Assembly (NCBI GenBank): GCA_017305715.1
Contig: JAFKKG010000024.1
Coordinates: 91,383-155,382, forward strand
From: Hyphomicrobiales bacterium
GTDB taxonomy: Bacteria > Pseudomonadota > Alphaproteobacteria > Rhizobiales > Xanthobacteraceae
Reading direction: 5' to 3'
DNA: 64,000 bases
The stretch's first letter is position 1. Every line of letters starts with the position of its first letter. A model generated the notes under the pieces. The model was not told where the DNA came from. It ran no database searches and saw only the letters and a list, made by a program, of their open reading frames with translations. A program made the position numbers and the translations under genes. This document shows, piece after piece, positions 3,750-31,329 of this stretch.

Positions 3750-4352
3750 ATGGGTTTACTCGACATACTCAACGGCATGCAGAACGGCCCCCGCGGCCCG
3801 AGCGCCCCGAGCGCACCATCGGATGGCAAGGAGGGCATGTCCCCGATGACAATGGCGATCCTGGCCCTGCTGGCCTGGAAAGCCGTGAAGCATTTCGGTG
3901 GCAGCCAGCCCGGAGCAGCGCCCTCGACGCCGTCTGCGCCCCCCAAACTTCCCGGCAACGTGACCGCGAGCCTGCCCGGCGGGCTGGGCGGTGCGTTGGG
4001 CGGCGGCGGTCTCAGTGACCTGATGAAGGGCGGCCTCGGCGGTTTGCTCGCGGGCGGCGCCGCCGGCAGCATTTTGAGCGGCGGCCTCGGCGACCTGCTC
4101 AAGCAGTTTCAGGAAAAGGGCCAGGGTGACGCGGCCAATTCATGGGTCAGCAACGGTCCTAACAAAGAAATCGCGCCCGGCGATCTCGCCAGCGCCCTCG
4201 GCGCCGACCAGATCAATTCGCTGGCCGCGCAAAGCGGGCTGTCCAGCGATGAATTGCTGAAAGGCCTCAGCCAGTATCTACCCGATGTGATCAATCATTT
4301 GACGCCGGACGGCAGGCTGCCGAACGAGCACGAAATCTCAAGCCGGCTCTGA
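3750..4352 (+). CDS. YidB/DUF937 family protein
   Basis: A 200-residue protein starting at the ATG at 3750 behind a good CAGGAGAAG ribosome site. Residues 1-60 carry a short hydrophobic segment (MTMAILALLAWKAV). A Gly/Pro/Leu-rich middle follows (repeated LGG and GGL units). The C-terminal ~60 residues (LASALGADQINSLAAQSGLS...LPDVINHLTPDGRLPN) are the typical YidB-like domain. The biochemical function of the family is not established. It precedes the GlsB-like membrane protein by 88 bases and may be co-transcribed with it. Confidence 0.8.
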   Translation: MGLLDILNGMQNGPRGPSAPSAPSDGKEGMSPMTMAILALLAWKAVKHFGGSQPGAAPSTPSAPPKLPGNVTASLPGGLGGALGGGGLSDLMKGGLGGLLAGGAAGSILSGGLGDLLKQFQEKGQGDAANSWVSNGPNKEIAPGDLASALGADQINSLAAQSGLSSDELLKGLSQYLPDVINHLTPDGRLPNEHEISSRL

Positions 4353-4440
4353 TACTGCGATAACGCGGCGCGTTCGCGCGCCGCATTCTCTCTCACAGAA
4401 CCTTGCTCTCTCACAGAACCTTGCAAGAAGGACCACAGTC

Positions 4441-4716
4441 ATGGGTGGCATTATCTGGGTCGTCGTCGTCGGCTTCGTCGCCGGAATCATCGCGCGCCTG
4501 CTTTCGCCCGGCCCGAACAACCCGAGCGGGTTCATCCTGACCACGGTGCTCGGCATCGCTGGTGCGTTTCTGGCCACCTTTATCGGCCAGGCCATCGGCC
4601 ATTACGGTCCCGATCAGGGCGCCGGCTTCATCACCGCCACCATCGGCGCATTGATCGTGCTGTTCATCTGGAACCGGCTGGTCGCCCGCGGCACGATTTC
4701 CGACATGAATAAGTGA
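4441..4716 (+). CDS. GlsB/YeaQ/YmgE family membrane protein
   Basis: A 91-residue inner-membrane protein with three hydrophobic, Gly-rich helices: IIWVVVVGFVAGIIARLL, FILTTVLGIAGAFLATFIG and FITATIGALIVLFIW. It has the family's length and a conserved-looking PGPNNPSGF loop. Members are often called transglycosylase-associated or general stress membrane proteins, but no enzyme activity is proven. It follows the YidB-like gene on the same strand. Confidence 0.85.
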   Translation: MGGIIWVVVVGFVAGIIARLLSPGPNNPSGFILTTVLGIAGAFLATFIGQAIGHYGPDQGAGFITATIGALIVLFIWNRLVARGTISDMNK

Positions 4717-4723
4717 CGGCGTA

Positions 4724-4830
4724 GCTGTCATCCCGGGGCGATGCGTAGCATCGAACCCGGGATCTCGAGATTCACCGGTGCGCAATTGCGCACCTGCGGT
4801 CTGGTGCTGGCGCACCATCCCGGAATGACG
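4724..4830. repeat. Modular hairpin-cassette repeat, copy A
   Basis: Bounded by GTCATCCCGG and CCCGGAATGAC arms. Inside are three separate hairpins: CGATGCGTAGCATCG (4739-4753), GGTGCGCAATTGCGCACC, and a GGTGC...GCACC unit. The copy at 13209-13314 has the same outer arms and first hairpin but different sequences in the other two positions. Confidence 0.65.
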
Positions 4831-4849
4831 AATCTAATTTTCTCAGCCC

Positions 4850-5632
4850 TCACAAAATCAAATGCATGCCCGCATCCATGCGGATGAACTCACCGGTCAT
4901 CTGTCCTGACGCCGGCGAGGCGAGGAATGTGACGAGCTGCGCAATATCGTCGGCCGTTGAGGCCGTCTTCAGCGGGACCTTGGCGATCACGGAATCGCGC
5001 ACCGCCTTGGCTCCGGCCTCGCCGCGGCCCTTGGTGAACCAGGGCGTATCGATATAGCCCGGGCATACCGTGTTGACGCGGATCAGGGGCGCGAGCGCCC
5101 GCGCCAGCGATTGCGTCATGGTGTTGAGCGCGCCCTTGCTCGCGGCATAGGCCACCGAAGAACCGCCGCCGGAAATGCCGGCTACCGACGACACGTTGAC
5201 CACGGCGGTGGCCCGGCCGGATGCTTTTGCACCGGCCTCGAGCTGCGCCCGCGCGGCACGGATCATCTGGAACGGGCCGATGGTGTTGACGGCATAGATG
5301 CGCTGGAAATCTTCCGCGGTGAGGCCATCCATATTGTCATGCGGCACATGCTTGGTGGTGCCGGCATTGTTGACCAGGATATCGAGCCGTCCCCAGGACG
5401 CCGCAGCCGCCGCGATCTTCTTGCAATCCTCGTCGCGCGAGACATCGCCCTGCACCACCACGACTTCGGCGCCCGCCGTGCGGCAGAGGTCCGCGGTCGC
5501 TTCGGCCTCGGCCTTGCTGTTGGAGTAATTGACGACGATACGCGCACCGCCCTTGGCCAGAATGGCCGCCGTCGCAGCCCCAAGGCCGGATGCCGAACCC
5601 GTTACGATCGCGTACAAACCATCCTTCGACAT
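4850..5632 (-). CDS. SDR family oxidoreductase
   Basis: A 260-residue classical short-chain dehydrogenase. The cofactor motif TGSASGLG sits near residue 12, the NNAG motif follows, the catalytic Ser lies in VVNVSSVAG, and the YAASK Tyr-Lys pair is present. The C-terminal GQMTGEFIRMDAG region is family-typical. The ATG at 5632 was chosen because AGAGGA lies six bases upstream; an ATG at 5638 is too close to it. It is divergent from the acyl-CoA dehydrogenase pair, so a 3-hydroxyacyl or alcohol substrate in the same pathway is plausible but unproven. Confidence 0.88.
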   Translation of the reverse strand: MSKDGLYAIVTGSASGLGAATAAILAKGGARIVVNYSNSKAEAEATADLCRTAGAEVVVVQGDVSRDEDCKKIAAAAASWGRLDILVNNAGTTKHVPHDNMDGLTAEDFQRIYAVNTIGPFQMIRAARAQLEAGAKASGRATAVVNVSSVAGISGGGSSVAYAASKGALNTMTQSLARALAPLIRVNTVCPGYIDTPWFTKGRGEAGAKAVRDSVIAKVPLKTASTADDIAQLVTFLASPASGQMTGEFIRMDAGMHLIL

Positions 5633-5916
5633 CCGCATTCCTCTTGTTGTTTTGAGCCGAACTTTCCCCGCGGTGGCATACCATATCGCGCCATAAAGTC
5701 CCTGCAAATCCGCACCTTCCGCTAGGCGGAATTCATTCATCGCCTGATGGGCCTCATGCTGCCCCCGCAAGCGGCCCTGCGGGCAGCGCTTGTCAGGCCT
5801 ATGGCTTTTCCTCATCATAAAGCGCAAGAAAAGGTCGAGAACAGAGCGCACCCGAAGCTCGGCGAAACAGCCGGGCCCGGTGCCAATCGTCTGTGCCAAT
5901 CAAGATGAGGAACGCT

Positions 5917-6981
5917 GTGGCGGAGAGTGAGAACATTGTTGCCGAGACCGCGGAGAAAATCTTCGCCGATCTTGCGGACGCCCAAACCATCAATCGCGAC
6001 AAGGAAGGCGCCTGGAAAGCCCCGCTCTGGCAGGCGCTGACGGAGTCCGGCCTGCCGCTGTCCTGGGTGCCGGAGGATTGCAACGGTTCGGGCGCGAGCC
6101 TCGCCGAAGGCTTTTCCGTTCTCAGCGCCGCCGGGCGCCATGCCGTCGCTGTCCCGCTGGCCGAAACCATGCTCGCCGGCTGGCTGCTGGCACAGGCGAA
6201 GATCTCTTCGCCCGACGGCGAAATGACCGTCGCGCCCGCAAGCCCGAAGGATCGCATCACGCTCAATGCCGATGGCAGCCTGTCGGGAAAAGCCCGCGGC
6301 GTGCCGTTCGCCAAAGCCGCGAGGCACATCGCGGTCCTCGCCGGCGATGCCAAGGGGCTGTCGATCGCGCTCGTCGATGCCAGCAAATGCCGGATCGAGG
6401 CCGGCCTCGGCCTCGGCGGAGATCACAGCGACACGGTGATCTTCGACAAGGTGCAGCCGGTCACGACCAGGCCGGCGCCAAAGGGTTTTGAGCAGACCCA
6501 CCTGATGCTGATGGGGGGCGTCGCCCGCTCGCTGCAAATCGCCGGCGCGCTGGAATCGATGCTGGAAATCTCCGTCGGCTATTCCAACGAGCGCGTCGCC
6601 TTCGAAAAGAAAATTTCGAAGTTCCAGGCGGTGCAGCACAACCTCGCACGCCTGGCCGGCGAATCGGCGGCCGCCCTTGCCGCGGCAACATCGGCGGCCG
6701 ATGCCATCGCCAACGCAAAATCCTTCAATGACGAGGTGTTCCTCGAGGCCGTCGCGGCAAAAATCCGCTGCTCGGAAGCGGCTGAAAAGGGCGGCGGCAT
6801 CGCCCATCAGGTCCATGGCGCGATCGGCTTCACCATCGAGCACATCCTGCACCGCTATTCGCTGCGCGCGCTCGGATGGCGCGACGATTTCGGCTCCGAA
6901 AGCTACTGGGCGGTCGAACTCGGCAAGCTCGTGGCGAACCGCGGCGCCGATGAATTGTGGCCGCTGGTGGCCTCGCGCTGA
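5917..6981 (+). CDS. Acyl-CoA dehydrogenase family protein, small-subunit type
   Basis: About 354 residues with the acyl-CoA dehydrogenase architecture: helical N-terminal domain, beta domain, then the C-terminal four-helix bundle (FEKKISKFQAVQHNLARLAG, HQVHGAIGFTIEHILHRYS). It resembles the catalytically weak partner subunit of heteromeric ACADs such as PimD-type proteins. The end of the protein (LGWRDDFGSESYW) lacks the usual YEGTSE segment. The GTG at 5917 follows AGGA by five bases; an ATG at 5905 and a GTG at 5893 are in-frame alternatives. Its partner is the next gene, 34 bases downstream. FAD-dependent alpha,beta-desaturation of an acyl-CoA is the expected reaction. Confidence 0.85.
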   Translation: MAESENIVAETAEKIFADLADAQTINRDKEGAWKAPLWQALTESGLPLSWVPEDCNGSGASLAEGFSVLSAAGRHAVAVPLAETMLAGWLLAQAKISSPDGEMTVAPASPKDRITLNADGSLSGKARGVPFAKAARHIAVLAGDAKGLSIALVDASKCRIEAGLGLGGDHSDTVIFDKVQPVTTRPAPKGFEQTHLMLMGGVARSLQIAGALESMLEISVGYSNERVAFEKKISKFQAVQHNLARLAGESAAALAAATSAADAIANAKSFNDEVFLEAVAAKIRCSEAAEKGGGIAHQVHGAIGFTIEHILHRYSLRALGWRDDFGSESYWAVELGKLVANRGADELWPLVASR

Positions 6982-7015: not shown

Positions 7016-8176
7016 ATGACCGCAGCCCTCCGTTTCGATCCGATCCGCCTGCCGCCCGAATGCGAACAGCTTCGTAAGGAAGTGCGCGCTTTCCTTGCCG
7101 AGGAAATCGCCGCCGGCACCTTCGATCCGCACAAGCCCAACCGCGAAGACACCGACGCGCCGGAATTTTCCCGAAGGGTCGGCGCCAAGGGCTGGCTCGG
7201 CATGACCTGGCCGAAGAAATATGGCGGCCATGAGCGCTCGTTCCTCGAGCGCTATGTCGTGACCGAGGAGATGCGCGTCGCCAACGCGCCGACGCGGCGC
7301 TTCTTCGTCGCCGACCGCCAGAGCGGGCCGGTGCTGCTGAAATACGCGCCGGAGAATATCAAGATGGACATCCTGCCGCGCATCTGCCGCGGCGAGGTCT
7401 GTTTTGCGATCGGCATGAGCGAGCCGAACTCCGGCTCCGACCTGTTTGCGGCCAAGACCCGCGCCACCAAGACCGACGGCGGCTATCTGATCAACGGCAC
7501 CAAGATCTGGACCTCGTCGGCCCACATCGCCGACTACATGATCGCGATCTTCCGCACCTCGCCGCCGACCAAGGAAAATCGCCGCCACGGCCTGACCCAG
7601 TTCCTGGTCAAGATGAAGCAGCCGGGCATCCAGGTGAACCCGATCGGCCAGATCACCGGCCAGTACGAGTTCAACGAGGTGGTCTTCACCGATTTCTTCG
7701 TACCCGACGATCACGTGCTCGGCGAAGTCGACGGCGCCTGGAAGCAGGCGACGTCAGAACTCGCCTATGAGCGCTCCGGCCCGGAGCGTTTTCTCGAAAC
7801 CTATTACGTGCTGACCGAACTGGTCCGCGCCGTCGGCAAGAACCCGGATACCCGCAGCGCCGAAGGCATCGGCCGTCTGGTGGCGCAGTTGCACACCATG
7901 CGGCGCATGTCGGTCTCGGTGGCGGGCATGCTGCAGGCCGGCAAGGAGCCGGTGGTGGAGGCTTCGATCGTCAAGGACATCGGCACGGTGTGGGAGCAGG
8001 CGCTGCCGCACCGGGTGCGCGACCTTGCGGCATTCGTCGAGGAAACCGCCACCAACCGCGAGACGCTGGAGAACCAGCTTTCATTCGCGATCAAGACTGC
8101 GCCGAAACTGACCATCCAGGGCGGCACCACCGAAGTGCTGCGCGGCATCATCGCCCGCGGGCTCGGTCTGCGCTGA
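7016..8176 (+). CDS. Acyl-CoA dehydrogenase family protein, large-subunit type
   Basis: A 386-residue ACAD with the FAD/substrate motif CFAIGMSEPNSGSDL near residue 130 and the INGTKIWTSSAH segment near 160. The C-terminal position that holds the catalytic Glu in medium-chain dehydrogenases reads QGGTTEVLR, so that Glu is absent. E252 in ELAYERSGPERF lies where isovaleryl-type and sterol-side-chain ACADs place their base, so it is the likely catalytic residue (inference). With the preceding gene it probably forms a heteromeric dehydrogenase comparable to PimC/PimD. Confidence 0.9.
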   Translation: MTAALRFDPIRLPPECEQLRKEVRAFLAEEIAAGTFDPHKPNREDTDAPEFSRRVGAKGWLGMTWPKKYGGHERSFLERYVVTEEMRVANAPTRRFFVADRQSGPVLLKYAPENIKMDILPRICRGEVCFAIGMSEPNSGSDLFAAKTRATKTDGGYLINGTKIWTSSAHIADYMIAIFRTSPPTKENRRHGLTQFLVKMKQPGIQVNPIGQITGQYEFNEVVFTDFFVPDDHVLGEVDGAWKQATSELAYERSGPERFLETYYVLTELVRAVGKNPDTRSAEGIGRLVAQLHTMRRMSVSVAGMLQAGKEPVVEASIVKDIGTVWEQALPHRVRDLAAFVEETATNRETLENQLSFAIKTAPKLTIQGGTTEVLRGIIARGLGLR

Positions 8177-27045: not shown

Positions 27046-27375
27046 ATGAGTCTTGATCTGTCGTCCTTCGGCCGGACGATTTCGTCCGCACGTAAAGCGA
27101 TTGGCCTAAGTCAGAAGGAATTGGCAGCAAAAATAAAAAAGGAAGACGGAGAACCTATTACTCCGCAGTACTTGAATGACATTGAGCATGATCGGCGAAG
27201 CCCGCAGTCCGATCATCTCGTTAGTGAATTTGCGAAGGTGTTAAAGATAGACACATATTCCCTTTACGCGGCGGCTGGGATGCTTCCTGAGCAAGACAGA
27301 AAGCTACTGAAGAAAGCCAGTCCAGCCGAAGCAAAGGATGCATTTGTCGCGTTTAGACGGAAACTCACAGGATAA
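27046..27375 (+). CDS. XRE family HTH transcriptional regulator (CapH-like)
   Basis: A 109-residue repressor-type protein. Residues ~8-65 form a lambda-type helix-turn-helix (ISSARKAIGLSQKELAAKI, then ITPQYLNDIEHDRRSP). The C-terminal ~40 residues (YAAAGMLPEQDRKLLKKAS) could be a dimer or protease-target segment. The next gene overlaps it by 38 bases and encodes an ImmA/IrrE metallopeptidase, the pairing known from ImmR-ImmA and CapH-CapP, where the protease cleaves the repressor after DNA damage. Repeated operators in three island promoters suggest it controls the whole island (inference). Confidence 0.85.
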   Translation: MSLDLSSFGRTISSARKAIGLSQKELAAKIKKEDGEPITPQYLNDIEHDRRSPQSDHLVSEFAKVLKIDTYSLYAAAGMLPEQDRKLLKKASPAEAKDAFVAFRRKLTG

Positions 27376-28087
27376 GCGCTTGGTCAAATACATTCGAGAC
27401 GATTTTCACGGCTTTCCTGAACGACCGCACTACGAGCCCAAAGAACTCGAAATGCAGTTTGAGCGGCTCGTGATAGATTTTCTTAGAACGAAGTATGGGA
27501 AAGTTGAGTTTCCTTTCAAAACAGACGACATCACACTGTTGATCGAACGAGACGTATTGGACCTTGACCAATATGCTGATTTGACACCGTACGGTGATGA
27601 CGTCGAAGGCATGACGCAATTTAAGCGCGACGCAAAACCCGACGTCTTTATTTCTAAGAACGTTCATCGACACGAAAATCGACTTCGAACGACCCTAGCT
27701 CACGAATATGGACACGTCATTCTGCATAGTTATTTGTTTAAGCTTGGACAACGAAGACTTCGATTAGGACTGAATCAGTCAGCGAGCGCGATCTACTGCA
27801 AACGCGGCACCATGCTTGGCGCAAAGAAGGTAGATTGGATGGAATGGCAAGCAGGTTTTGCCTCGGGCGTAGTATTGATGCCCAAAACTTACGTTCACAC
27901 TGTAGTGGCACCGATTCGCCAGCGGTTGGGAGTGTTTGGCGCCGCCGAACAGGGCACGGATGCCGGGCATCTGATGATTCGCGCAGTGATGAATTCATTT
28001 ATGGTCTCGCGTGAAGCCGCCATCGTGCGGCTCAAGGTGCTGAATATGCTGGGTTCGATGCCAGAACAGCGCTCTCTCTTTAGCTAA
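27338..28087 (+). CDS. ImmA/IrrE family metallo-endopeptidase (CapP-like)
   Basis: A 249-residue zinc peptidase. The HEYGH motif is at residues 122-126. The third ligand is probably the Glu in DWMEWQAGFASGVVLMP, the family's ExxAxxFA...LMP segment. Cysteine content is low. It overlaps the XRE gene and is surely translated with it. By analogy with ImmA and CapP it would cut the neighbouring repressor in response to a damage signal, inducing the operons downstream. The ATG at 27338 gives the longest form; the first ~14 residues are uncertain. Confidence 0.87.
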   Translation: MHLSRLDGNSQDKRLVKYIRDDFHGFPERPHYEPKELEMQFERLVIDFLRTKYGKVEFPFKTDDITLLIERDVLDLDQYADLTPYGDDVEGMTQFKRDAKPDVFISKNVHRHENRLRTTLAHEYGHVILHSYLFKLGQRRLRLGLNQSASAIYCKRGTMLGAKKVDWMEWQAGFASGVVLMPKTYVHTVVAPIRQRLGVFGAAEQGTDAGHLMIRAVMNSFMVSREAAIVRLKVLNMLGSMPEQRSLFS

Positions 28088-28185: not shown

Positions 28186-29034
28186 ATGAGCGTCGAATGG
28201 AACGAAGATAGAGGCGAATCGCGCCAATCGGGTCCGGGGCTTTGCGGCTGTGGATCCGACAGCGAGCAGGCTGCAAAGACAGAAATTGAAAAAGCTCAGA
28301 GAGAAATTGGCCGAGCTGAAAAAGAGATCGAGCACGGTATTCGTGACCTCAACGAAGCTCGCATTCACCTCGACAAGGCAGAGAGAGACCTCGAAAGGGA
28401 ACACCACGAAGAAGGTGTTCATTTCACCGTCGATGGTGAGCCGTTCGAAACCCGTCATCCCGAGCAAACACCAAATTTCATAATCAAAGAATACAGCGAT
28501 CGCGACCCAGCAACTAACTATCTCGTAAAAATCCAGGGTCACGGCAAAGACGTGAGTTACAAGGATAAAGGCAATACCCAGATCACGATTGAAGACTGCG
28601 ATGCCTTCCAGATTATCTCTGTCGGCCCTGCGCCCGTATCAGATGGTCGCAGCAAGACCGGGGTCGATGCGTTTATCGCCGGACTGCAGGATGTCGGTTG
28701 CAAGCCGGAGATCGTTCCCAACAAGTCCGACCATGTTGCATTTACCTACGAAGTGCCTACAGGCAAATACGCGGGCCAATCGATCAACATTGGCCTTGTC
28801 GTCCCCCCGGATTTTCCACTTACCCCGCCGGGGGGCGTGCACATTTCGTCCTTAATTCATCCGAACAAGCCCGGCGGCAGTCATCCGACCGGGGGCGTTC
28901 ATGATAGTTCCTTCCAGGGCTACCTCGGCCATTCGTGGCAATACTGGTCTCGCCCCTTCAACGAGTGGAGTAAGACCAAAAGGACAATCACCGCTTATTT
29001 TGGTCATCTCTGGAAGCTGTGGGACACGCAATGA
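28186..29034 (+). CDS. Coiled coil - ubiquitin-like (multiubiquitin) domain - E2-like domain fusion
   Basis: 282 residues from the ATG at 28186 (GGAG nine bases upstream). Residues 28-75 are a heptad-like coiled coil (IEKAQREIGRAEKEIEHGI). Residues 76-150 match the multiubiquitin beta-grasp domain (VHFTVDGEPFETR, PATNYLVKIQGHGKDVSYKD, FQIISVGPAPV). Residues 155-282 are E2-like: FPLTPPGGVHISSLIHPN keeps the PxxPP and HPN (225-227) features, then WQYWSRPFNEW and YFGHLWKLW. The protein has four Cys (20, 22, 138, 172) and none after HPN, so a thioester at the classical site is impossible. It is coupled by ATGA to the JAB-E1 gene. Probably modifier and carrier in one chain. Confidence 0.82.
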   Translation: MSVEWNEDRGESRQSGPGLCGCGSDSEQAAKTEIEKAQREIGRAEKEIEHGIRDLNEARIHLDKAERDLEREHHEEGVHFTVDGEPFETRHPEQTPNFIIKEYSDRDPATNYLVKIQGHGKDVSYKDKGNTQITIEDCDAFQIISVGPAPVSDGRSKTGVDAFIAGLQDVGCKPEIVPNKSDHVAFTYEVPTGKYAGQSINIGLVVPPDFPLTPPGGVHISSLIHPNKPGGSHPTGGVHDSSFQGYLGHSWQYWSRPFNEWSKTKRTITAYFGHLWKLWDTQ

Positions 29035-30443
29035 CCCGTGCCGCCCTCAGTGTCGCCATGACTGAAACGCTTGGCGCGTCGGCGCAGCAGCATCTGTTAC
29101 GTACCGACCGCCAAGAGGATTTGTGTTTCGCCCTGTGGCGTCCGAGCACCGGGCAGACGCGCACCACTGCATTGATTTATCGCCTCCTTGTACCATTTTC
29201 TGGCGAGCGCAGCGTGCACGGCAATGCAAGTTTTGAATCGCGGTATTTTCAACGGGCGCTCTCCGAAGCAGTCACTGATGGCGCGGGTATCGCGCTGATG
29301 CATAGTCATCCGCATGGCTGTCAGTGGCAAGGTATGAGCCCCGACGACGTCGACACCGAAAGCGGTCATGCGCCGGCCGTTTATGGTGCAACGCGGTTGC
29401 CGTTCATTGGGTTGACCATCTCGGGTGACCGCGCATGGTCTGGTCGATTCTGGACGCGAACGGGTCCAAGAAAGTACGAACGACAAGATTGTGCGACAGT
29501 GCGGGTGGTGGGTGAACGCCTAAAAATCACATACATGGACCGGCTCGCTCCACCACCGACGGAAACCCTCGCTCAGATCAGAACTGTTTCTGCTTGGGGC
29601 TCACAGAAGCAGGCCGACCTGACCCGATTGCGCGTTGGCTTGGTGGGCGCCGGAAGCGTTGGTGGATTTGTCGCTGAGGCTGCTGCGCGCACTGGTTTTG
29701 AAGATATCACCGGCATCGACTTCGACGTCGTCGAAGAGAAAAATCTCGATCGTCTCCTGTTCGCGACACGGCGCGATATCGGGCTTCCAAAAATTAACGC
29801 TTTGGAACGACATCTGCTGGACCGAGCGACAGCACAAAGTTTTCGATTCTTGTCTATTCCCTGTGCTGTGTATGAGAAGGAGGCTCTTCTCGCCGCGCTC
29901 GATTGTGACCTGATCGTCTCTTGTGTCGATCGTCCATGGGCGCGTCACGTTTTAAATCTCATCGCTTATGCGCATCTAATCCCTGTCGTCGACGGGGGAA
30001 TCGCGGTAAGACGCAATCGCCAGGGTGAATTTGCCGCAGCTGATTGGCGCGCCCACACGATCGGCCCCGGCCGTCGTTGCTTAGAATGCATCGGGCAGTA
30101 CGATTCTGGTCACGTGCAGATCGAACGCGATGGTTATCTTGAGGATCCAACGTACATTGAACACTTGTCGGCCGGCCACCCTCTCAAAGCGCGCGAAAAC
30201 GTGTTCGCTTTCTCGATGAGTTGTGCCAGCTTGCAGTTCAATCAGATGCTAAATTTTGCTCTCGATCCATTAGGTCAAGCTAACTCCGGTGAACAGCTTT
30301 ATCATTTTGTCGGTGCCCGCATGGAACCCGCGCTGTTCGAACATTGTCAGGCCGACTGCATGTTCCCCAAGATCGTCGCTGCAGGCGACGAATGTCCCTA
30401 CATTTTGGCTAGTAAACGTCCCGTCGGCTCGGCAACGAGGTAA
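29031..30443 (+). CDS. JAB/MPN deubiquitinase-like protease fused to E1/ThiF-like adenylyltransferase
   Basis: 470 residues; the start overlaps the upstream stop (ATGA). Residues ~30-160 form a JAMM metalloprotease: H91-S-H93 followed after nine residues by S103-P-D-D106, with a preceding Glu in FSGERSVHG or SFES. Residues ~195-470 form an E1-like domain: GAGSVG (206-211), the ID-FD acidic end of strand 2, SCVDRPWARH, and zinc-type pairs C350-x2-C353 (RRCLEC) and C439-x3-C443 (HCQADC). Expected work: the E1 part adenylates the Ubl or its carrier, the JAB part processes or removes it. Same-strand partner of the Ubl-E2 fusion. Confidence 0.87.
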   Translation: MTRAALSVAMTETLGASAQQHLLRTDRQEDLCFALWRPSTGQTRTTALIYRLLVPFSGERSVHGNASFESRYFQRALSEAVTDGAGIALMHSHPHGCQWQGMSPDDVDTESGHAPAVYGATRLPFIGLTISGDRAWSGRFWTRTGPRKYERQDCATVRVVGERLKITYMDRLAPPPTETLAQIRTVSAWGSQKQADLTRLRVGLVGAGSVGGFVAEAAARTGFEDITGIDFDVVEEKNLDRLLFATRRDIGLPKINALERHLLDRATAQSFRFLSIPCAVYEKEALLAALDCDLIVSCVDRPWARHVLNLIAYAHLIPVVDGGIAVRRNRQGEFAAADWRAHTIGPGRRCLECIGQYDSGHVQIERDGYLEDPTYIEHLSAGHPLKARENVFAFSMSCASLQFNQMLNFALDPLGQANSGEQLYHFVGARMEPALFEHCQADCMFPKIVAAGDECPYILASKRPVGSATR

Positions 30444-30487: not shown

Positions 30488-31054
30488 TCATTTTTTATGT
30501 TTTAATGGATGCTTCTGGTCTTTGTAGCGATCGGTCTTGCGTGAACCATAAGCCATAGAATTCGGGACAGGAGATTTCAATTCAAGAAAAGTTAGTTGGC
30601 ATGGTCTATCTATGAGAGGCGTAAGCTTGATCGGTATTTGACCGTGGTTGGCGATTTCGAGGACTATTGGACCGCTCCATCCAGGCTGAATCCACGGCGC
30701 TGTTTGGTGCATACTGAGACCTACGCGCGCGTATGTGCTTCTACCTTCAACAAGTCCAATGAGCGATTTAGGAATAGTGATTGACTCATGAGTTAGCGCG
30801 AGAACCAACTCACCGGGAACTAGATCGAAATAGTCTCGCTCTTCTGTATTCCAAAGGTTTAGATCGCCCAACGATCCCAAACCGCCAGCAACGGAAAGAG
30901 TAATCCCGGTAATATCTTTTCTATAGGTGGTGAACTGACGGCCTAATCGTAAGTCAATCGAGGCTTCACCCCACTGAGTTTCCTCCAGCGCAGGGGAGAA
31001 CTGTATTTTCCCATTCTCCACCTGTCGGCGAAGATCCTTTTGGGAGAGGATCAT
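30488..31054 (-). CDS. dCTP deaminase-like protein (Dcd, dUTPase fold)
   Basis: A 188-residue protein of normal Dcd length. The motifs GEASIDLRLG (29-38), GRSTYARVGL (104-113), QPGWSGPIVLEIAN with E133, and LIDRPCQLTFLEL match dCTP deaminase; the Arg, Ser and Glu that act in catalysis are retained. The reaction would be dCTP to dUTP. Its ATG overlaps the stop of the small unknown gene upstream by four bases. It is convergent with the Ubl operon and shares its operator, so a role in depleting or editing nucleotides during phage attack or damage is possible; simple housekeeping is the alternative. Confidence 0.82.
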   Translation of the reverse strand: MILSQKDLRRQVENGKIQFSPALEETQWGEASIDLRLGRQFTTYRKDITGITLSVAGGLGSLGDLNLWNTEERDYFDLVPGELVLALTHESITIPKSLIGLVEGRSTYARVGLSMHQTAPWIQPGWSGPIVLEIANHGQIPIKLTPLIDRPCQLTFLELKSPVPNSMAYGSRKTDRYKDQKHPLKHKK

Positions 31055-31329
31055 CCAGTAGCCTTTCGGACTAACGAGCTTGCAATGTCGGCTAAGCCCG
31101 TTGTCGTGAAAAACGATCCAGCAAGTTTTACGGTCAAGTATGTAGGCGAAACGTTTTTAACTTCGGCAAAAATGTATTGGTCGCTGCCCTGCTGAACTAT
31201 TGAGTCGGTCTTGGCAAAGCCTGACACAATTCCACCCTCGGTAGTTACGGTTACCAGCTTTTCCCCCGGAAATGCCCCCGCTTTTACATTGGTCGGAACG
31301 AGAACCATTTCGCCAGGACGTGGGGCCAT
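31051..31329 (-). CDS. Small protein of unknown function, partner of the dCTP deaminase
   Basis: 92 residues from the ATG at 31329 with GGGAG upstream. The sequence is beta-rich with no signal peptide and no cysteine: VLVPTNVKAGAFPGEKLVTV, then YIFAEVKNVSPTYLTVKLAG, then a short C-terminal helix. I do not recognise a family. It overlaps the dCTP-deaminase-like gene (ATGA), so the two are translated together, perhaps as a complex or as regulator and enzyme. Confidence 0.65.
   Translation of the reverse strand: MAPRPGEMVLVPTNVKAGAFPGEKLVTVTTEGGIVSGFAKTDSIVQQGSDQYIFAEVKNVSPTYLTVKLAGSFFTTTGLADIASSLVRKATG

Follow-up and report, generated by a model that had tools for sequence, protein, structure and literature searches.

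In Bil operons, a ubiquitin-like protein (Ubl), an E2 with a catalytic cysteine, an E1 and a JAB protein are encoded by separate genes of one operon; in type II CBASS (cyclic oligonucleotide-based antiphage signalling system), a cGAS/DncV-like nucleotidyltransferase lies beside the E1; and in Bub systems, the transfer of the Ubl uses oxyesters. The Bub operon of a Citrobacter plasmid runs from regulators through a multi-Ubl-E2 fusion and a JAB-E1 fusion to a DUF6527 gene (Pfam), and its BubA, BubB and BubCD proteins are represented by structures (PDB 9ea4, 9ea5, 9ea8, 9eae and 9eav). Type 6e of Iyer 2006, as far as the accessible part of that source describes it (PMC1779556), comprises an E1, mostly with a JAB domain fused in front, a protein carrying one to three Ubls, in some species fused to a cysteine-less E2/RWD-like domain, and a further, potentially metal-binding protein that is here taken to be DUF6527. 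An operon of this kind lies in a stretch of 64,000 nucleotides from a Hyphomicrobiales bacterium (GenBank assembly GCA_017305715.1, contig JAFKKG010000024.1, positions 91,383 to 155,382; hereafter, the window), in which gene A joins a coiled coil, a Ubl and an E2-like domain and gene B joins a JAB domain to an E1-like domain. We read it, with a probability of a little under 60%, as a Bub-type Ubl conjugation operon that stands on a different branch from the Citrobacter type and that would follow the course proposed below, in which a JAB-cut Ubl ending in serine is handed on through a tyrosine of the E1-like domain. The packing into two fusions, which a preliminary description of this DNA had considered unusual, is ordinary, having already been described as row 6e of Iyer 2006 and in the Citrobacter Bub operon; within the Bub/6e kind, it is the separate branch and the Ser or Ala ends of its Ubls that appear to be the unusual detail, as judged against the open-licence literature.

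Membership of the Bub family follows from the match of B to BubCD and from the presence in A of a Prok-E2_E domain and a multi-ubiquitin-like Ubl. Specifically, Pfam detects ThiF in B (3.3e-26) and Prok-E2_E in A (residues 169-270, 5.6e-7, above the cut-off), B matches Citrobacter BubCD at 1.3e-19 by sequence (residues 9-326) and at 6.0e-33 by fold, and the top eight Foldseek matches of the AlphaFold2 model of B (12 rows; mean predicted local distance difference test (pLDDT) 83.8, predicted template modelling score (pTM) 0.86) are all Citrobacter BubCD, to which B is related as a JAB domain joined to the N-terminus of an E1-like domain. The match of the operon parts to these families is far beyond chance, and the two-gene system that had been described from the letters, with Ubl, E2-like, JAB and E1 domains in two fusions, was recovered by Pfam, sequence and fold, both open reading frames (ORFs) being found where they had been placed and overlapping as ATGA. 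All the JAMM residues named at the time (H91, H93, S103, D106) are present, with E29 upstream, as are the E1 motifs GAGSVG (206-211), CxxC (350-353) and CxxxC (439-443). An alignment of JAB-E1 proteins keeps E29, H91, H93, G206, G211, D232, N238, R241, K254, D300 and Y375 in 24/24 rows, D106 in 22 and S103 in 21. The E1 domain fold also resembles MccB, MoeB and ThiF, which would suit a system without protein conjugation, devoted to sulfur carriage or to the adenylation of a small molecule or peptide; this is very improbable in view of the linked Ubl, E2-like and JAB parts, the lack of a Gly-Gly end and the whole-length match to BubCD, with E-values far better than those for MccB or MoeB. Identity with a sulfur carrier system was dropped because the resemblance to ThiF/MoeB is limited to the E1, and so was identity with Bil (fused genes, no E2 cysteine) and with CBASS (scan of 5 neighbouring proteins, none of them a cGAS-like cyclase).

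The relatives of the operon were sampled as 19 of the 157 plasmid records matching B (the ten top-ranked at 38% identity or more, H1-H10, and nine hand-picked, more distant ones), 8 loci from another search, both non-self matches in the class and one non-self match in the phylum; L078 (H3) is excluded from the Ubl-end counts, the tree rows and the neighbour counts. In a careful IQ-TREE tree of 32 JAB-E1 proteins, 9 Citrobacter-type rows are parted at 100/100 from the 23 others, which consist of 21 window-clade and 2 haloarchaeal rows, with L075 forming a long branch. A DUF6527 gene was found at 9/9 loci of the Citrobacter-type branch, L016, L026 and L053 being independent finds for a profile built from the other six, versus 0/23 loci on the window side (0/21 of the window clade, 0/2 haloarchaeal) within searched flanks of a few kilobases, about 1.5 kb downstream in the case of L007. 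Ubl and E2 are fused in some relatives and encoded separately in others, and the two forms, to go by the tree, replace each other, because the fused state needs three changes, which the starred branches force; the tree does not give the direction of gain or loss, and the "split" label of L012 is unsure, given that its Ubl gene was not found and a partial E2 frame is visible.

Two further sets of loci on this tree are worth recording. The genome of the window carries a second Bub-type operon (L075 1853-4328, on to 5245), in which Ubl, Prok-E2_E, JAB-E1 and DUF6527 each have a gene of their own and behind which lies an ORF that by eye resembles SppA/Clp-type serine proteases; both sides of the tree are therefore represented in one cell. 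On the haloarchaeal plasmids L022 and L024, a JAB-E1-like gene is preceded by small separate genes whose position and appearance by eye suggest a Ubl and an E2; helicase and RNase H-like genes lie close by, and the ends of the Ubl-like proteins are neither Gly nor PVS/PVA.

The AlphaFold2 model of A (14-row alignment; mean pLDDT 78.6) has a helix of 50 residues (24-73) in which hydrophobic residues occupy 79% of the a/d positions when the best of seven registers is taken, then strands and helix in beta-grasp order (E78-82, E85-89, H96-104, E111-116, E139-145), a low-confidence stretch at residues 148-155 and a UBC-like part (159-280). Structure prediction, at a pTM of 0.44, thus bears out the beta-grasp fold expected earlier for residues 76-150 and the UBC-like fold expected for 155-282. 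In Foldseek, the Ubl part finds multi-ubiquitin proteins and BubA(155-229) at a probability of 1.00, with many E2s among the remaining rows, and a profile of the multi-ubiquitin type matches at 0.0038. Pfam Multi_ubiq gives no match in A itself in the Pfam scan, while it exceeds the cut-off in the relatives L008 (6.5e-21) and L020 (2.8e-11) and falls below it in L014, L021 and L042; by fold and profile, a Ubl of the multi-ubiquitin kind is present in A in one copy. The low pTM and the individual Foldseek matches, which are weak, with every E-value above 0.001, count against our interpretation of A. The close relative L008 has three Multi_ubiq stretches ahead of its E2, partly where the window has the coiled coil, and the latter may be a substitute oligomerisation element for Ubl repeats, by analogy with the Citrobacter multi-ubiquitin protein, which forms filaments according to a PDB title.

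The preliminary description had aptly left two fates for the internal Ubl, release by the JAB domain or attachment of the whole protein to targets, and the split relatives point to the former, at S152|D153. Within the window clade, the free Ubls end in Ser (4; PVS/TVS in L007, L009, L010 and L011) or Ala (10; L013, L014, L018-L021, L043, L076, L077 and L079), which accounts for 14/14 readable ends of 16 split loci, the other two being L012 and L078, whose record starts inside the operon. The fused members of the clade (the window, L005, L006, L008, L042 and L074) have Ser or Ala followed by Asp in 6/6 cases, L042 having been read separately because its row is empty in the Ubl-terminus alignment. 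On the other branch, the fused junctions are NG|E (L015, L016, L025, L026 and L053) or REG|E (L023), and the last residue of the Citrobacter BubA constructs, G229, is the glycine of the fused junction NNG|E; an ungapped count from the last strand sets S152 one residue past the place of G229. The prediction that the JAB domain of B cuts A after S152 is derived from the free Ubls of the clade, all readable ones of which end at the corresponding residue. That the split forms stem from a sequencing frameshift was rejected, since splits in different phyla end at the same residue and two of them, L009 and L011, show ATGA-type overlaps.

Two points weigh against this site. Many of the split rows are near-copies (e.g., L014/L018 and L021/L079), so that the 14 are not independent cases, and MAFFT aligns G229, via a three-residue gap, with G154, two residues beyond S152 and present in 4/6 fused members, which leaves room for a cut at G154. 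An ordinary glycine end, produced by JAB cleavage after G147 (SVG) or G154 (SDG), would also suit the conservation of G147 in 10/10 Ubl rows nearest the window (window included, L043 apart) and the short tail that the free Ubls L028 and L075 of the other branch carry past their Gly. However, no Gly is kept at position 147 in the actinobacterial members, a cut there would split a Gly|Pro bond and leave a tail shorter than that of Citrobacter, whereas L008 and L074 lack G154, a position that none of the readable free Ubls reaches, so that a glycine cut is improbable. Scarcely better are the prospects of a protein A that acts whole, with the Ubl tethered and the E1 and JAB domains acting on the C-terminus of A, or with the Ubl only docking: A is one ORF and the six fused members found in the clade all keep both domains in frame, but the free Ubl ends of the split relatives fall at the same place, the Citrobacter structures used the Ubl and E2 parts separately, and the JAMM residues of the partner protein B are intact.

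Once released after S152, the Ubl would present a serine carboxylate to an E1 domain in which the alignment has no conserved cysteine between CxxC and the following helix. Tyr375 lies in the loop of this region, which we take to be the place where other E1s of the same fold keep their cysteine. By alignment, Y375 corresponds to Citrobacter Y370 and D106 to D104, and both residues are mutated in published structures, as in PDB 9eav, entitled "BubCD(D104A/Y370F)-BubB-BubA(155-229)". The candidate role of the tyrosine is weakened by two facts, namely that the role of Y370 is read only from this title and that the loop with Y375 has a pLDDT below 50; in a second alignment of 25 rows, Y375 is nearly invariant (90% or more) and not invariant.

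The only cysteines of A are residues 20, 22, 138 and 172. C172, the sole one in the E2-like domain, lies in or just after the first helix and is not conserved among the aligned relatives, and an E2 active-site cysteine is found neither in A nor in the ten E2 rows nearest the window (window included, L043 row apart). The earlier designation of this domain as a carrier consequently lacks support in the sense of a thioester carrier. The same absence would fit a domain that is a structural adaptor only, with the E1 passing the Ubl straight to the target, and Iyer 2006, in its accessible part, calls the cysteine-less forms inactive and proposes a structural role (PMC1779556). This alternative is unlikely, although less so than those on processing: every member whose gene A or E2 gene is readable retains the domain, L043 and the haloarchaeal L024 being the only ones in which it lacks a WSR- or HSR-like motif, and the solved BubCD-BubB-BubA complex argues for a part in transfer, though it is no proof of catalysis. 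A tblastn search of plasmids with the E2 domain alone gave no matches. Conversely, a cysteine stands just before WxxHSR in 6/8 actinobacterial plasmid E2s (L014, L018, L019, L020, L021 and L079, as opposed to L013 and L077), as it does in a ninth, L076, seen as a raw frame only, and L043 has one nearby; because of these E2s, cysteine-free transfer need not apply across the whole branch.

The course proposed for the operon would start from DNA damage, upon which a CapP-like ImmA/IrrE peptidase would cleave a CapH-like helix-turn-helix (HTH) repressor and the operon would be expressed. The JAB domain of B would cut A after S152, yielding a coiled-coil Ubl with a C-terminal Ser and a separate E2-like protein; the E1 domain, to judge from its intact residues, would adenylate the Ubl terminus, which would then be handed on via the conserved Tyr375 instead of a cysteine, probably as an oxyester. 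The cysteine-less E2-like domain would bind the E1 and the Ubl and present the target, as a non-covalent or otherwise unusual helper, the JAB domain would also undo the modification of protein targets, the coiled coil would replace the extra Ubl repeats of the relatives and may oligomerise the tag, and the purpose would be a DNA-damage or phage response. The domains, the intact JAMM and adenylation residues, Tyr375, the lack of an E2 cysteine and the shared junction are observed by sequence and fold; the course built on them is a proposal, against which it weighs that no phage-protection data for a Bub operon turned up in the accessible literature, one report describing such operons as not demonstrated to protect against phage (PMC13373217).

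Compared with the described systems, the operon shares with Bub the Ubl-E2-like fusion beside a JAB-E1 fusion, the cysteine-less E2-like active site, the upstream regulators and the JAMM Asp and E1 Tyr at equivalent places. It differs in having one Ubl and a coiled coil instead of several Ubls, in a Ubl that seems to end in Ser where the Citrobacter BubA constructs end in Gly, in the probable zinc site of its E1, in its place on the opposite side of the 100/100 branch, and in the absence of DUF6527, the usual Bub partner; neither DUF6527 nor a Gly end is stated as required in the accessible parts of the sources. With type 6e, it has in common the JAB before the E1, the Ubls and, as in some species, the fusion to an inactive E2/RWD-like domain, while the presumed DUF6527 is absent at the window and a coiled coil does not figure in the accessible text of Iyer 2006 (PMC1779556). 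The presence of Ubl, E2, E1 and JAB in one operon recalls Bil, from which the two fusions, as had been pointed out for the four-gene Bil layout, and the lack of an E2 active-site cysteine set the window apart. Type II CBASS, with Cap2 and Cap3, likewise combines a bacterial E1, a weaker relative of B, with a JAB protein, but there the E1 is fused to the E2 and here to the JAB.

A cysteine thioester and a C-terminal Gly are commonly held to be fixed points of ubiquitin chemistry, and the form of the window appears to do without both. It is conceivable, although less likely than not and more doubtful than the reading given at the outset, that the operon represents a separate branch of the Ubl pathway, cysteine-free in the form seen in the window, in which a JAB-cut, Ser- or Ala-ended Ubl would pass through an E1 Tyr oxyester to the target with the help of a cysteine-less E2, under a rule of non-Gly termini, and in which the Ubl-E2 fusion perhaps arose independently of Citrobacter-type Bubs. 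The naturally fused and split relatives provide an expected cut site and clean substrates, the chemistry needed to move a ubiquitin-like tag is testable with two proteins, and the operon offers a second, distant reference next to the solved Citrobacter Bub proteins.

A is absent from 197/198 genomes of the family (E 0.001), and strong matches to B occur in 3/385 genomes of the class (1e-60) and 2/398 of the phylum (1e-50), the own genome counted each time. A viral scan returned 21 loci, with a long match in one of them, L053; this is a typical Bub operon, DUF6527 included, at 3880-6709 of an IMG/VR contig called viral, beside ORFs that look Mu-type phage-like by eye.

A pair of the CapH+CapP type, consisting, by sequence evidence, of an HTH repressor and an HExxH ImmA/IrrE peptidase, lies directly upstream of the operon (Table 1), the real start of the peptidase gene being probably shortly past 27375, by comparison with L005 by eye. 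HTH orthologues of 74-75% identity precede the same operon in L005 and L006, and an ImmA/IrrE-like HExxH peptidase is near 19/21 window-clade loci (four of which contribute to the profile), not being found at L007, where only 774 bases upstream are available, and L077; the remaining 11 loci have a match in 6, that of L015 being weak and inside a helicase ORF. According to the accessible part of one source, 219 of 544 Bub operons stand beside CapW or CapH+CapP (PMC13373217), and another, similarly limited, states that single-stranded DNA activates PprI and CapP (PMC10904395). In L005 (Bradyrhizobium frederickii), a 164-residue ORF at 7406-7900 overlaps the end of JAB-E1 and is ParB/sulfiredoxin-like by eye, with no Pfam match.

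Table 1. Coordinates of the operon, its domains and sites, and the upstream regulators in the window.
Feature	Position	Strand	Evidence
Gene A, BubA+BubB-like: coiled coil - Ubl - E2-like fusion	28186..29034	+	282-residue ORF; Pfam, AlphaFold2, Foldseek
Long helix, A residues 24-73, likely coiled coil, regular heptads	28255..28404	+	AlphaFold2, heptad count
Ubl beta-grasp domain, A residues 76-152, terminal GPAPVS	28411..28641	+	AlphaFold2, Foldseek, alignment
Predicted JAB processing site S152|D153	28639..28644	+	Ends of free Ubls in split relatives; low-confidence model at 148-155
UBC/E2-like domain (Prok-E2_E), A residues 153-282, no active-site Cys, WSRP 254-257	28642..29031	+	Pfam, AlphaFold2, Foldseek
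Gene B, BubCD-like JAB-E1 fusion	29031..30443	+	470-residue ORF; Pfam, sequence and fold matches
JAMM/JAB protease domain (E29, H91, H93, S103, D106), end approximate	29031..29525	+	Alignment, model
E1-like adenylation domain, CxxC/CxxxC (probable zinc site)	29568..30440	+	Pfam, alignment
E1 Tyr375 codon, counterpart of Citrobacter BubCD Y370	30153..30155	+	Alignments
HTH repressor, CapH-like	27046..27375	+	Pfam HTH_3 7.3e-8; PADLOC capH 1.9e-4, HTH_VI 3.9e-9
ImmA/IrrE metallopeptidase, CapP-like, HEYGH	27338..28087	+	Pfam Peptidase_M78 3.9e-7; PADLOC capP 1.2e-10; HExxH

The G+C content falls to 48-57% over about 26.8-31.4 kb, between flanks of about 60-67%, and around rpmB, over 10-12 kb, in 8 of 20 other listed genomes of the same genus, none of A, B, the HTH gene, the ImmA gene or the dCTP deaminase gene was found. 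The low G+C, the rarity in relatives and the operon-free rpmB sites fit the placement of the operon in a horizontally acquired insert. Convergent to the operon, the same insert carries a dCTP deaminase gene (30488-31054, minus strand; TIGR02274, 2.7e-41) and a small ORF that matches dUTPases weakly (31051-31329, minus strand; 0.039); dCTP deaminases occur as phage defence too. Lastly, rpmB is followed in L048 by a PF09994 (Tle1-like) gene and then by two further genes located past the insert of the window, and in L044 (1494-4385), the match to the Tle1-like (PF09994) gene by rpmB is broken into two oppositely oriented pieces, so that the insertion spot has been rearranged there too.

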